DNA of 64,000 bases, taken from Modestobacter sp. Leaf380 (lineage in GTDB: Bacteria > Actinomycetota > Actinomycetes > Mycobacteriales > Geodermatophilaceae). The stretch covers positions 372,001 through 436,000 of the forward strand of contig NZ_LMQC01000019.1 of assembly GCF_001424485.1 (NCBI RefSeq), in the 5' to 3' direction. Made by a program: the position numbers and the translations under genes. The notes under the pieces are model-generated. The model ran no database searches, was not told the DNA's origin, and saw only the letters and a program-made list of their open reading frames with translations. This document shows positions 7,312 to 54,153 of this stretch, piece by piece. The number at the start of each line of letters is the position of its first letter. The stretch's first letter is position 1.

Positions 7312-7370
7312 GGCATGGGATCCCCCGCATACCGCTGGACGCGCGCGCCGTATGCGAGGGATCCCATGCC
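7312..7370. repeat. 59-bp hairpin element, copy 1
   Basis: Two 21-nt arms (7312-7332 and 7350-7370), each starting or ending GGCATGGGATCCC / GGGATCCCATGCC, flank a 17-nt loop. The arms contain one mismatch, which is a G-U pair in minus-strand RNA. This copy lies in the divergent gap between crcB and the CoA-transferase. Copy 2 at 51431-51489 has identical arms, the same mismatch and a different loop of the same length. Confidence 0.9.
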
Positions 7371-46300: not shown

Positions 46301-46429
46301 CCGTGCCCCTTCCCCGTGTGTGGTCCCCCCACCCTCACAGCCCGGTCCCGGTCGATCAAGCACGGGACCGTCTCGGTGGACGGACCTCACCCCTGTGGAC
46401 GACGTCGGGCACGCCCTGCCAGGATCGGT

Positions 46430-46512
46430 GTCGACACGGGGTGTCCCGACCGCGGGACTGAGAGCACACCCGTCGAACCTGCTCCAGCTGACACTGGCGA
46501 AGGGATGTCGAC
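46430..46512 (+). ncRNA. TPP riboswitch (THI element) controlling thiM operon
   Basis: The conserved core is present in order: GGGGTGTCCC, ACTGAGA, GAACCTG, and CTGACACTGGCGAAGGGA. The 5' strand GTCGACA (46430-46436) can pair with TGTCGAC (46506-46512), which includes two bases of the thiM ATG. TPP binding would therefore hide the start site, so control is probably at translation. Confidence 0.95.
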
Positions 46513-47320
46513 CCTGATGGACGCTGCCGACCTGCGGGCTGCCCGCACCGCGCTGACCGACTCCGCACCACTCGTGCACTGCCTGACCAACACCGTCGTC
46601 CAGACGATCACCGCGAACGCGCTGCTGGCGGTGGGCGCCGCGCCGGCGATGGTGGACGCCCCCGAGGAGGCGGCCGGGTTCGCCGCCATCGCCTCGGCGG
46701 TGCTGGTCAACGTGGGCACCGTCAACGCCCGGACGGCGGAGGCGATGCGGCTGGCCGCCCGGTCCGCCGGGGACGCCGGCACCCCGTGGGTGCTGGACCC
46801 GGTGGCGGTGGGCGGGCTGCCGTTCCGCACCGGACTGGCCGCCGAGCTGGTGCAGCTGCGCCCGGCCGTGGTCCGGGGCAACGCCTCGGAGGTGCTCGCC
46901 CTGGCCGGTGCGGGCGCCGGTGGGCGCGGCGTGGACAGCACCCACAGCACCGACGACGCACTGGAGGCCGCGGCCGACCTGGCCCGGCGGACCGGCGGCG
47001 TGGTCGCGGTCAGCGGGGAGGTCGACGTCGTCACCGACGGCACCACGACGGTCCGGGTCGGCGGCGGGCACGTGCTGCTGACCCGCACCACCGGCGCCGG
47101 CTGCGCCCTCGGCGCGCTCACCGCGGCCTACGTCGCGGCGACCGGCTCCCCGCTGCTGGGCGCGGTGGCCGCGCACGCGCACGTCGCGGTGGCCGCCGAG
47201 CGGGCCGCGGCCACCGCCGCCGGGCCCGGCAGCTTCGCGATCGCCTGGCTGGACGCCCTGGACGCCGTCGGCCCCGACGACCTCGCCGCCGCTGACCTCG
47301 CCGCCGCCGACCTCCGATGA
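46505..47320 (+). CDS. thiM: Hydroxyethylthiazole kinase
   Basis: 271 residues. ThiM motifs include [47 protein letters not shown] and [19 protein letters not shown] (anion hole and catalytic Cys/Asp region). It salvages the thiazole moiety of thiamine by phosphorylation. ATG 46505 lies in the riboswitch P1 stem. First of four overlapping genes. Confidence 0.96.
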
Positions 47321-51430: not shown

Positions 51431-51489
51431 GGCATGGGATCCCCCGCATACAGCGTGCGCCCTCTGCCGTATGCGAGGGATCCCATGCC
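51431..51489. repeat. 59-bp hairpin element, copy 2
   Basis: Arms 51431-51451 and 51469-51489 are identical to copy 1 (7312-7370), including the single mismatch. The 17-nt loop is of the same length but different sequence. It lies between convergent genes here, where it can also serve as terminator. Confidence 0.9.
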
Positions 51490-51507: not shown

Positions 51508-52386
51508 TCAGACGAGGCGCAGGGTGCGGGGGGAGCGGCCGACGGCCACCTGCTGCCCCCAGGACAGCGTCAGGTGGTCGTCCTCCAGGCCGTCGCCGAA
51601 CGCGACCAGCCCGTCGGACTCCACCGTCATGCGCAGCACGTCGTCGCCGGTGAGCAGGCCCTCGGTGCAGGTGGTGCCGGTGACCGGAGAGGGCCAGGCC
51701 TCCCGGACGAACCAGGCCAGCGCCGCGTCGGTGGGGCCGGGCAGGGCCAGCGGGCTGCGCCGCTCCTGCGCCGCCGACCGGCACCACCCGGTCGCCCCGG
51801 TGCCGGTGGCCACCAGCACCCCGGACGACGCCTGGCGCTCGGCGTCGGCACCGGGGGCGTGCAGCCGGTAGCGGGCGGTCTGGTGGGTGGGCTGGCCCAG
51901 GTAGACCTCGTTGAGCGCGAGCAGGGTCTGCCCGTCGTCCGCGGTGGCCTGGACCATGGTGAGCTCCCGGACCCGGTCCCGGGTGGCGAGCAGCCGGCCG
52001 ACGTCGGCGGCCCGGTGCCGGACCAGCACGCCGGCGTTGCGGCCGGGTTCGGGGTCCACCCCGACGACGGGCTGCCCGTCGAGGTACTTGGCCACGTTGG
52101 CGACCAGGCCGTCCTGCCCGACCACCAGGACGACGTCGTCCGGGGCGAAGAGGAAGCGCGGCAGGTCGGCCCGCTCGACGCTGCCCCGCCGCCAGTCCAG
52201 CGGCACCTGGGCCAGCGCGGTGGCGACGGCGGCCTGCTGGGCGGTGTCGTGCGCGGCGACCTCCTCGACGTCCCGCCCGCGGCTGCGCAGGAAGAACGCA
52301 GCCTGCCCGCGGGTGCCGTGCCGGGCCACCAGCTCGCTGAGCTCGGTGGCCCGGTGCACGAGCACCACCCGGGGCGCCAGGCTCAC
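51508..52386 (-). CDS. NAD kinase-like protein, divergent active site
   Basis: 292 residues. Outline of the NADK fold: [18 protein letters not shown] replaces GGDG with [30 protein letters not shown] (NE/D motif) and [15 protein letters not shown] in place of TPTGSTAY. The key Asp, Asn and Glu are kept. It may phosphorylate NAD(H) or a related nucleotide, or be a regulatory relic. GTG overlaps the SPFH gene stop (GTGA); the Nudix-HTH regulator is divergent beyond it. Confidence 0.72.
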
Positions 52387-53402
52387 GGCCGGCCGCCGTC
52401 CCCCGAGCCGCCGGCCCCCAGCTTGGCCAGCAGGCCGGTGAGCAGCTCCGGGGTGACGGTCAGGTTCTGCACCTGCGGCAGGTTCGCGGCCATCTGGCGC
52501 AGGGCCAGGGCGTAGACCGTCTCCACGGGCATGTCGACCCAGGCGGCCAGCTCGGCGGTGTTGGCCGCGCCCTGCGCCTCGCCCAGCACCCGCTTGCGCT
52601 CGGCGTCCACGTCGGCGGCGGCCCGGTCCCGGCGGGCCTTCGACTCCGCGGCCACCTCGGCCGCGGCCGCGGCGTTCTCCGCCTCCCGCCGGGCGTTGAC
52701 CCCGCGCTGGGCGACCAGTTCCTCCTCGCGGCGGGCCAGCTCGACCTGGTTGGCCAGCTCGTTCTCCGCGATCGCCCGCTCCCGCTCCACCGCCACGGCC
52801 CGCCGTGAGTAGGTGGCGGCGTCGGCGTCGGCCTGCACCTGCTCCCGGGTCGGCGTCCGCAGGGCCCGCTCGACGTCGGGTTCGGGCCGGATGGCGACCA
52901 CCCGGACGTCGATGACGGCGATGCCGGTCTCGACCAGCCGACCGTCAGCGGCCAGCCCGGCCGCCACGGTGTCCCGCACGGTGCGGACGCCGCCGGTCAG
53001 CGCCACGGTCATCGGGGTGGCCGCGAGCAGGTCGATCGCGTGCTGCTGGGCCGACTCGGTGAGCAGGCCGGCCACCTGCTCCAGCGGGGTGCCCCGCCAG
53101 CGGCCGGTGTCCGGGTCGATGGAGAAGTCCACCCGCCCGGCGGCCAGCACCGGGTCGGCGAACCGGAAGGTCAGGGTCATCTGGACGGTGGTGTCCTGGA
53201 AGTCCGCGGTCCGGGCGTGGAAGAGCAGCGGGAGCTCCCGGTCGTCGACGGGGATCTCGCTGAGCACGGCCGACAGCGGCCGGAACCAGAAGCTGGCGCC
53301 GGTGCCGGCGTGCCGCAGCCGGCCGGCGGTGACGTGCTGGACGTGGGCGGTCGCGGAGCCCCGCAGGTGCCGCACGAGGGGGTACCGGGCGATGTCGGCC
53401 AT
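52383..53402 (-). CDS. SPFH/band-7 domain protein without membrane anchor
   Basis: 339 residues. An SPFH core (about 45-190; [36 protein letters not shown]) precedes an Arg/Ala/Glu coiled coil (190-275) and a Leu/Ala-rich C-terminus. Unlike the flotillin at 44 kb there is no hydrophobic N-terminal segment, so it is probably cytosolic or peripheral. ATG 53402 with AGGAGG upstream. Overlaps the NAD-kinase-like gene. Confidence 0.82.
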
Positions 53403-53417
53403 CTCTGCCTCCTGTTG

Positions 53418-53438
53418 TTGTCGTCAGCCAGACGATAA
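53418..53438. promoter_or_regulatory. Candidate operator for the Nudix-HTH regulator
   Basis: TTGTCGTC-N5-GACGATAA inverted repeat; TTGTCGTCA recurs at 53452-53460. It overlaps the -10 of the SPFH promoter. Confidence 0.5.
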
Positions 53439-53461
53439 GCAGGTGCAGGGCTTGTCGTCAA
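53432..53461 (-). promoter_or_regulatory. Probable promoter of the SPFH-NAD-kinase-like operon
   Basis: Minus-strand TTGACG (53461-53456), an 18-bp spacer and TATCGT (53437-53432). The leader would be about 22 nt and carry AGGAGG. Confidence 0.5.
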
Positions 53462-53481
53462 GGTGACGCTAGGGTGGGGTC

Positions 53482-54153
53482 ATGGGCCACCCGGCAGTCG
53501 CGGTCACCGTCGACCTCGTCGTCCTCACCGTGCGGGAGGACGCGCTCTGCGTGCTGCTGGTCCGCCGCGGCGTCGAACCGCACCGGGGCCGAGAGGCCCT
53601 CCCCGGCGGCTTCCTGCGCCCGGACGAGGACCTGGCCGCCGCGGCCGCCCGCGAGCTCGCCGAGGAGACCGGCCTCACCGTCGGGCACCTGGAGCAGCTG
53701 GCCTCCTACGGCGCCCCCGACCGGGACCCCCGCCAGCGCGTGGTCACCGTGGCGCACCTGGCGCTGGTGCCCGACCAGCCGCTGCCCACCGCCGGCACCG
53801 ACGCCGCCGACGCCCGCTGGGTCCCCGTCGCCGACGCCTGCGGGCTCGCCTTCGACCACGACCGGGTGCTCGCCGACGGCGTCGAGCGGGCCCGGGCCAA
53901 GCTCGAGTACACCGCCCTGGCGACGGCGTTCTGCCCGCCGGCGTTCACCGTCGCCCAGCTGCGCCGGGTCTACGAGGTCGTCTGGGGCCGGGCCCTGGAC
54001 CCGCGGAACTTCCACCGCAAGGTCACCGGCACCCCCGGCCTGCTGGAGCCCACCGGCGAGACCACCACGAGGGACGGCGGCCGCCCCGCGCAGCTGTTCC
54101 GCCGCGGCCCGGCCGACACCCTGCACCCGCCCTTCCTCCGCACCGACGCCTGA
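53482..54153 (+). CDS. Nudix domain - winged HTH regulator (NrtR-like)
   Basis: 223 residues. A complete Nudix box begins at Gly43 (GFLRPDE then RELAEETGL), so hydrolase activity may persist. The C-terminal winged HTH runs from about 150 (FTVAQLRRVYEVVWGRALDPRNFHRK). NrtR-family proteins sense ADP-ribose or related NAD metabolites and control NAD genes. It is divergent from the SPFH/NAD-kinase-like operon. ATG 53482 sits 6 nt after TAGGGT, so the mRNA is probably leaderless. Confidence 0.87.
   Translation: MGHPAVAVTVDLVVLTVREDALCVLLVRRGVEPHRGREALPGGFLRPDEDLAAAAARELAEETGLTVGHLEQLASYGAPDRDPRQRVVTVAHLALVPDQPLPTAGTDAADARWVPVADACGLAFDHDRVLADGVERARAKLEYTALATAFCPPAFTVAQLRRVYEVVWGRALDPRNFHRKVTGTPGLLEPTGETTTRDGGRPAQLFRRGPADTLHPPFLRTDA

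Follow-up and report, generated by a model that had tools for sequence, protein, structure and literature searches.

The 64-kb window analysed here (the whole stretch from position 372,001 to 436,000, forward strand, of contig NZ_LMQC01000019.1 of Modestobacter sp. Leaf380, out of a 4.76-Mb genome) carries three open reading frames (ORFs) at positions 51508–54153: a minus-strand operon for an SPFH protein and a protein with the fold of nicotinamide adenine dinucleotide (NAD) kinases, and a plus-strand Nudix/winged-helix gene that points away from it. We favour, with moderate confidence, the interpretation that the repressor, the SPFH protein and the NADK2-type kinase constitute a compact, horizontally mobile NAD-stress module. 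We have very little doubt that these genes form a module under repression, and a signal linked to NAD is highly likely; a physical complex between the SPFH protein and the kinase is rather probable, while on its activity as a pyridine-nucleotide kinase we are nearly evenly divided, leaning slightly to doubt. The features of the locus are as follows.

51508–52386, minus strand: NADK2-type protein with the NAD-kinase fold and GQDGL as its phosphate loop; 292 amino acids, GTG start (PDB profile, AlphaFold model, structure match).
52108–52119, minus strand: codons of the GQDG loop, residues 90–93, which is GGDG in NAD kinases (sequence and member alignment).
52383–53402, minus strand: SPFH (Band 7) protein, 339 amino acids, with the SPFH domain at residues 1–174 followed by a 115-residue helix (Pfam, model, hydropathy).
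53418–53438, minus strand: operator 2, TTATCGTCTGGCTGACGACAA, spanning the operon −10 element (TATCGT, 53437–53432; pattern search).
53452–53472, minus strand: operator 1, CTAGCGTCACCTTGACGACAA, holding the operon −35 element (TTGACG, 53461–53456) and extending to the possible −10 element of the regulator gene (pattern search).
53470–53475, plus strand: TAGGGT, a possible −10 element of the regulator gene (from sequence only).
53482–54153, plus strand: Nudix/NrtR-type winged-helix repressor with an intact Nudix box, 223 amino acids (Pfam, PDB matches, alignment).

An earlier description made from the letters without database searches (the sequence-only reading) had proposed a soluble SPFH protein overlapped by a divergent NAD-kinase homologue, with an NrtR-like regulator on the opposite strand and an inverted repeat over the operon −10, and had named a lack of joint conservation as grounds for refutation. 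The kinase-like ORF indeed overlaps the end of the SPFH gene by 4 bp, and comparison of loci agrees with the proposed unit. We examined the best 80 loci of at least 294 kinase-like relatives in the genome collection, nearly all actinobacterial by title, with one metagenome-assembled genome labelled Chloroflexi; because these loci are skewed to Lentzea, Actinoplanes, Kribbella and Streptomyces, the counts are not independent events. The SPFH gene lies directly upstream of the kinase gene in 80/80 loci, and a divergent regulator homologue lies within 600 bp in 65/80 (one cut by a contig end). The 4-bp overlap is present in 67 of 81 loci, counting the window. The nearest named relatives of the window kinase-like protein belong to Klenkia (83–88% identity). 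For L013 the called SPFH start probably lies too far downstream, and this locus is absent from alignment A2.

Among 96 genomes sampled from the family, 15 carry the kinase gene (E ≤0.001; one is a 40-residue fragment at a contig edge), and the same 15 carry both the SPFH gene (E ≤1e-20; one match contains TGA) and the regulator (E ≤1e-60), with a weaker regulator homologue alone in one further genome. Since the same genomes hold all three, the unit is inherited in an all-or-none, patchy fashion in the family. A survey of 396 genomes of the phylum gave 61 kinase matches, reduced to 13 strong ones (E ≤1e-33, one in two pieces), all accompanied by the SPFH gene; one additional genome has the SPFH gene only (14 in total), and the remaining 48 matches (19–40 bits) are presumably ordinary NAD kinases. 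The module also occurs on plasmids. A protein search of plasmid records returned 57 with a homologue, 42 of them from Rhizobium, and in the ten records searched with all three proteins the SPFH gene always adjoins the kinase gene (a partial match in one). Six of these ten have an adjacent divergent Nudix regulator (Rhizobium etli p42f, Cupriavidus, Providencia, Acinetobacter, Methylomonas and Proteus); in the spirochaete Treponema the SPFH and kinase genes are present with a Nudix homologue about 4 kb away, and in the Roseomonas, Kitasatospora and uncultured-bacterium records no regulator homologue was found. The module is present in at least three phyla: Actinomycetota, Pseudomonadota and Spirochaetota. 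A viral origin was set aside, as phage records yielded no homologue and none of 109 pattern matches in viral contigs could be confirmed. No DNA match to the Providencia operon was found in Escherichia coli by a search sensitive to about 65% identity or better.

Beyond the trio, ORF clustering returned no cluster shared by more than 10 of the 81 loci. Larger neighbour clusters are limited to one or two genera, a few five-locus clusters bring together different genera at varying positions, and two ten-locus clusters lie antisense within the trio and resemble shadow frames. The neighbour ORF filter is imperfect, having recovered the kinase in 56 loci and the regulator in 52. In an uncultured-bacterium plasmid (L204, SPFH gene matched in part), an Acinetobacter plasmid (L205, SPFH gene unannotated) and a Proteus record (L208), the kinase-like gene adjoins tet(H) or tet(J), and part of the module may travel with tetracycline-resistance genes.

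The inverted repeat is a 21-bp palindrome present in two copies, one at 53418–53438 over the operon −10, as the sequence-only reading had it, and a second over the −35 at 53452–53472. A search of the window genome with 16 fixed positions and up to 3 mismatches returned, below 3 mismatches, these two local copies alone; two more sites have 3 mismatches, which is what the reversed-pattern control gives (0 forward, 2 reverse). Again with up to 3 mismatches, the 130 bp before the SPFH gene contain at least one operator in 81/81 loci and two in 65/81, against an average of 0.00 loci in 20 dinucleotide shuffles. The spacing between the two copies is most often 34 bp (49 loci), then 33 bp (11 loci); five other loci show 45, 36 or 25 bp. 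As the elements TTGAC(A/G) and T(T/A)ATCGT, with a spacer of 16, 17 or 19, are visible in 51 of the 81 loci, the operators are built into the promoter. The start codon of the regulator gene, at 53482, follows TAGGGT, so its transcript may be leaderless. By eye, promoters of the gammaproteobacterial loci contain recurring palindromes of the GTGTC-N5-GACA kind, whose GTC-N5-GAC core is that of the operators above.

The divergent gene has the domain layout of NrtR, with Pfam matches to NUDIX (3.8e-22) and NrtR_WHD (2e-15), both above cut-off, and matches of 3e-41 or better to PDB entries 2fml, 5bs6 (AraR) and 3gz5; the last we take to be SoNrtR. It scores 143.8 bits against the NCBIfam equivalog NF050029, whose cut-off is 400, and we therefore regard it as NrtR-type and not as a member of that narrow equivalog. 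The full Nudix box attributed to it, G-x5-E-x7-REL-x-EE-x-G, is invariant in 65/65 aligned regulators. According to excerpts of two papers, NrtR regulators repress NAD genes and respond to ADP-ribose, or to NAD in the case of NdnR, and in MsNrtR the Nudix box is less conserved and hydrolysis undetectable (PMC6800001, PMC4666351). The system described here shares with NrtR a Nudix domain followed by the winged helix, and divergent genes with a palindrome between them. It differs in the intact Nudix box, in the missed equivalog cut-off, in having its good sites in the window genome only at the SPFH–kinase operon, and in the operator itself, which reads TTATCGTC-N5-GACGA(T/C)AA as opposed to GTTTTCGA-N7-TCGAAAAC in the portion of the MsNrtR study consulted (PMC6800001).

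Pairing of regulator and operator is also seen in trans. All 15 of the 80 loci that lack an adjacent regulator keep the upstream site (up to 3 mismatches), with letters altered in two Nocardia and a few others. In 10 of these 15 genomes the operator, always with 2 mismatches, directly precedes a regulator homologue encoded elsewhere; one of the ten relocated regulators sits 4.6 kb from the SPFH–kinase genes, in the same locus. Streptomyces and relatives carry a second regulator paralogue (L103–L110), about 55–64% identical to the window regulator, with the operator upstream in 0/8; L098 also lacks it.

The operator further connects the module to NAD metabolism, as had been proposed. We searched 10 genomes without an adjacent regulator, labelled here by G numbers, with a pattern of 14 fixed and 2 two-fold positions, allowing up to 2 mismatches, and obtained 92 strand-wise matches (a palindrome counts twice) versus 11 for the reversed pattern. 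The 36 regions read comprise all listed sites except those at SPFH genes and known regulators; one of them (L177) is the promoter of the G013 regulator itself. Ten of the 36 have a site followed, at a distance of 5–28 bp to the first possible start codon, by a gene for the synthesis or uptake of NAD. These genes are nadE in G003, G004, G005, G014 and G015, nadA in G003 and G007, a nadB-nadC fusion preceded by two sites in G003, and pncB and pnuC, each with a site, in G005. The two nadA, the nadB-nadC fusion, pncB and two of the nadE genes were checked with NCBIfam and pnuC with Pfam; the other three nadE genes were named from their evident likeness to the checked ones. Three of the six sites with 0–1 mismatch that lie away from SPFH and regulator genes are at NAD genes. 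Because the operator precedes nad, pnc and pnu genes in these other, in part Streptomyces-type, genomes, as it does in NrtR systems, the regulator is assigned as an NrtR-type NAD regulator, and the SPFH–kinase operon is, on this comparative evidence, a member of an NrtR-type NAD regulon. In the window genome the regulon has shrunk to, or begun as, the SPFH–kinase operon alone.

Some other genes near such sites were recorded. In Kitasatospora G005, two genes for TIR-domain proteins (L149:2360-2953 and L175:3021-3626) have 2-mismatch operators 37 and 26 bp upstream, respectively, and might encode an NAD-cleaving effector under an NAD repressor. In Allonocardiopsis G009 an operator-like pair with 34-bp spacing (L151:3023-3077) lies between adenosine deaminase and divergent nucleotidyltransferase-like genes, with thymidine phosphorylase-like and cytidine deaminase-like genes nearby. 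Two ADP-ribosylglycohydrolase genes (L148:3198-4796 and L152:1769-2872) are 125–138 bp from operator-like sites; they were not counted as targets and are possibly regulon members or chance neighbours. A putative Sir2-like frame was noticed in the translated text near L153.

The NAD-kinase fold spans the whole length of the kinase-like protein in its AlphaFold model (pLDDT, the predicted local distance difference test, 93.2; pTM, the predicted template modelling score, 0.88). An 81-member profile searched against the PDB gave human mitochondrial NADK2 as the top match (6.4e-16), with bacterial NAD kinases next (8.8e-7), and the same order was obtained by structure comparison, in which the model matched NADK2 (7r4l) with a VIA Z of 24.4 (2.9 Å over 274 residues) and bacterial NAD kinases with 21.4 or below (7qvs 21.4). 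Alignment to 7r4j and 7n29 shows that the TPTGSTAY loop is replaced by the SSG...TGTG...W loop in the form found in NADK2. The sequence-only reading had singled out both GQDG (residues 90–93) and TGTGATG (194–200) as divergent motifs; both are present and the first stands, while the second loses its peculiarity and its status as a new motif, as human mitochondrial NADK2 also has TGTG. Gln91 replaces the second glycine of GGDG in 80/81 aligned members. Invariant among the 81 are D92, the catalytic-type aspartate, N159 and E160 of the short NE/D motif (N-D or N-E in plasmid relatives), T196, G197, T199, G200 and W201, and D265-G266. The signature GQDGLVAN is retained in all 10 plasmid-set loci (9 distinct proteins, two being identical), nine of these loci belonging to taxa other than Actinomycetota or to an unnamed bacterium, and spans Actinobacteria, Proteobacteria and a spirochaete.

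We accordingly class the protein not as an NAD kinase but as a GQDG-type relative of NADK2 that probably functions as an NAD kinase does. With NADK2 (C5orf33; PDB 7r4j–7r4m and 7n29) it shares, besides the best sequence and structure match and the SSG...TGTG...W loop, a GVxxxPxRxxG segment; it differs in reading GQDGL where NADK2 has the phosphate loop GGDGT, in being shorter, and in being encoded with an SPFH partner. With bacterial NAD kinases (PpnK/NadK) it shares the fold, the aspartate of the GGDG loop and the N-E/D pair, and differs from them in GQDGL, in the absence of the TPTGSTAY loop and in failing the Pfam NAD_kinase model: the window protein has no match to PF01513 up to E 1 and none to any Pfam model above cut-off. 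That model is matched by 51 of the 81 members at E ≤0.1 (best 2.5e-4), and NCBIfam gives weak NAD-kinase matches to the window protein (best 1.2e-7). Excerpts of a review state that the GGDG motif is thought to participate in catalysis, that the residue after it is linked to the choice of donor, ATP or polyphosphate, and that some alphaproteobacterial NAD kinases read GGDGL (PMC8553519); the last point weakens the idea that leucine after GxDG is a sure sign of a new phosphate donor.

Elsewhere in the window genome there are two canonical NAD kinases, both with GGDGT, so the kinase-like protein is neither ordinary nor the only one, and neither of the two conditions named for refuting the sequence-only reading holds. 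One (L001:1336-2262) comes after a flavin-disulfide-oxidoreductase-like gene and the other (L002) adjoins a tlyA-like gene. A figure legend in the same review credits bacteria with a single cytosolic NAD kinase (PMC8553519). In the window genome, two canonical enzymes stand beside a further branch of the NADK2 type, whose phosphate loop is altered and whose control is predicted to be inducible.

The SPFH assignment is supported by a match to Pfam Band_7 (PF01145; 3e-9, 37.6 bits against a cut-off of 23.6). The highest mean hydropathy over 19 residues is 1.31, so there is no obvious membrane helix, in line with the soluble protein originally proposed; lipidation or peripheral membrane binding may nonetheless occur. 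The model (mean pLDDT 85.6) consists of the domain at 1–174 and one 115-residue helix, and its structural relatives are nearly tied in VIA Z: HflK/C 14.3, erlins and prohibitins 13.8, major vault protein 13.6 and flotillin 13.3, with large root-mean-square deviations where the long helix is included. A special homology to vaults was dropped, the vault chains (Z 11.1–13.6) ranking beside HflK/C, erlin, prohibitin and flotillin. An SPFH domain followed by a long helix is common to the window protein and to HflK/C, stomatin, prohibitin, erlin, flotillin and major vault protein; it differs from these known SPFH proteins in having no evident membrane helix and in the coupling of its gene to a kinase gene. 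By analogy with these relatives, the protein may assemble into a ring or dome.

In the mechanism we favour, the repressor would sit on both 21-bp operators and block the −35 and −10 elements of the operon as well as its own promoter. On breakdown of NAD, a product, most likely ADP-ribose as the family's usual ligand, would fill the Nudix pocket and the repressor would leave the DNA. The SPFH protein and the NADK2-type kinase would then be made by coupled translation, and the former would assemble into a ring or dome holding the latter. The kinase would most likely phosphorylate NAD(H) or a close NAD-derived dinucleotide, and would thereby raise NAD phosphate (NADP(H)) or shield the pool; its GQDGL loop would probably alter the phosphoryl donor or the kinetics relative to the housekeeping NAD kinases. 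With its Nudix box intact, unlike the less conserved one of MsNrtR, the repressor would be able to degrade its own inducer and thereby return the system to its starting state. The operator step of this scheme is well supported by comparison between loci; the effector, the scaffold assembly, the physical complex, the substrate and the catalysis are the steps that we infer. A bolder version, which we put forward only tentatively and consider doubtful, places the pyridine-nucleotide kinase, with GQDG as a new phosphate loop, inside a soluble cage or dome of SPFH protein, or has it gate that structure. The assembly would serve as a bacterial NAD(P) stress compartment or store, turned on through an ADP-ribose-sensing Nudix repressor and carried between phyla by plasmids; it would be a new class of enzyme–scaffold assembly and would add to the housekeeping NAD kinases a third, inducible route for supplying NADP(H) or protecting NAD.

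Several observations weigh against the favoured reading. Because GQDG breaks the GGDG motif the kinase-like protein may be inactive, and because leucine after GGDG occurs in ordinary alphaproteobacterial NAD kinases, only the change of glycine to glutamine is truly unusual. Taken over its full length, the SPFH model is poor (pTM 0.54). In the window genome, the pattern search placed every site below 3 mismatches at this locus and none ahead of another gene. We searched 14 genomes with an adjacent regulator as well, obtaining 81 strand-wise matches versus 20 in the control; among the sites read, those with 0–1 mismatch, every one is local to the SPFH operon in 13 genomes, and the exception is Arthrobacter, with a site 47 bp before pnuC. 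Five of the 15 genomes that lack an adjacent regulator (two Nocardia, G003, G006 and G008) yielded no regulator with a matching site. Twenty-six of the 36 regions read have no gene of NAD biosynthesis or uptake, one being the regulator's own promoter noted above, and most of the 26 have 2-mismatch sites and may be chance matches; one of the nadE sites (L150, G005) also faces a divergent glutamine-synthetase-like gene. A strict inverted-repeat search recovered few of the gammaproteobacterial palindromes; across proteobacterial promoters it gave one imperfect pair in Providencia, none in Methylomonas and one short unrelated pair in Proteus, along with a perfect 17-bp pair among three in Cupriavidus and a 22-nt pair at 77% in Rhizobium. 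As this search gave little, the case for conserved operators outside Actinomycetota comes from visual inspection. Finally, no wet-lab fact was found for any member of the unit.

The same glutamine substitution is the starting point of the strongest alternative, that the protein is a pseudokinase which binds NAD(H) or NADP(H) without phosphorylating it and, in response to pyridine-nucleotide state, switches how the SPFH scaffold assembles or acts. The near-universal Gln in the 81 members, extending to all 10 plasmid-set loci, is consistent with this, as are the two ordinary NAD kinases that can supply NADP in the same cell and the tight 4-bp overlap, which suggests a fixed partner. The conservation of D92, the N-E pair and T196, G197, T199, G200 and W201 would be unusual for a non-catalytic protein, and we consider a pseudokinase unlikely. 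A second alternative retains catalysis and changes the acceptor: ADP-ribose, nicotinic acid adenine dinucleotide, nicotinamide mononucleotide or a signalling dinucleotide would be phosphorylated to detoxify or mark products of NAD breakdown, and the Nudix repressor may hydrolyse the same ligand. ADP-ribose is among the ligands reported for the repressor family in the excerpts cited, and a box complete in 65/65 regulators, compared with the less conserved and apparently inactive one described there for MsNrtR (PMC6800001, PMC4666351), would fit such a role; the comparable loops, however, resemble those of NADK2, an NAD(H) kinase, and we regard this explanation as quite unlikely.

A third possibility is a defence or conflict module, in which cleavage of NAD by TIR or Sir2 proteins during phage attack would produce ADP-ribose that derepresses the operon and so restores or withholds the dinucleotide pool. 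The patchy, partly plasmid-borne distribution across phyla and the two operator-bearing TIR-domain genes of Kitasatospora are in keeping with it. PADLOC protein models, however, gave no match for the kinase or the SPFH protein, the sole match being a weak one of the regulator's Nudix domain to PDC-S07 (17.8 bits, 4.6e-4); phage records and viral contigs contributed no confirmed homologue, no recurrent defence neighbour was seen at the loci, and the link to TIR is confined to one genome. Assignment as a defence system was accordingly rejected on the PADLOC result, and the idea, kept as a rival only for those two TIR genes, is improbable. An ordinary, redundant NAD kinase beside an SPFH gene by happenstance is very improbable: the full-length NAD-kinase fold speaks for it, but fold alone is insufficient where GGDG is lost and the Pfam NAD_kinase model missed, GQDGLVAN is kept from Actinobacteria to a spirochaete, and the unit is inherited all-or-none.

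The sequence-only reading had seen no obvious textbook equivalent, and full-text literature searches showed nothing to the contrary: no description of an SPFH–NAD kinase–NrtR unit was found, with a table entry in the founding NrtR paper possible. Plasmid records name the kinase-like gene "sugar kinase", "ATP-NAD kinase PpnK-type protein" or "hypothetical protein", and annotations of this kind make the system easily passed over. The module offers a concrete handle on the function of soluble SPFH proteins, on the origin of mitochondrial-type NAD kinases and on the bacterial response to NAD breakdown.

Two further features of the window were noted. A 53-bp hairpin with 18-bp arms, ATGGGATCCCCCGCATAC, and one arm mismatch occurs at 7315–7367 and 51434–51486 (4 matches found versus 0.02 expected by chance); the second copy, between convergent genes, may be a terminator or a dispersed repeat. 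Rfam at gathering thresholds returned nothing but a thiamine pyrophosphate (TPP) riboswitch on the plus strand at 46427–46522 (RF00059, 63.5 bits), which lies upstream of genes that by eye resemble thiM, thiE, thiD and tenA.

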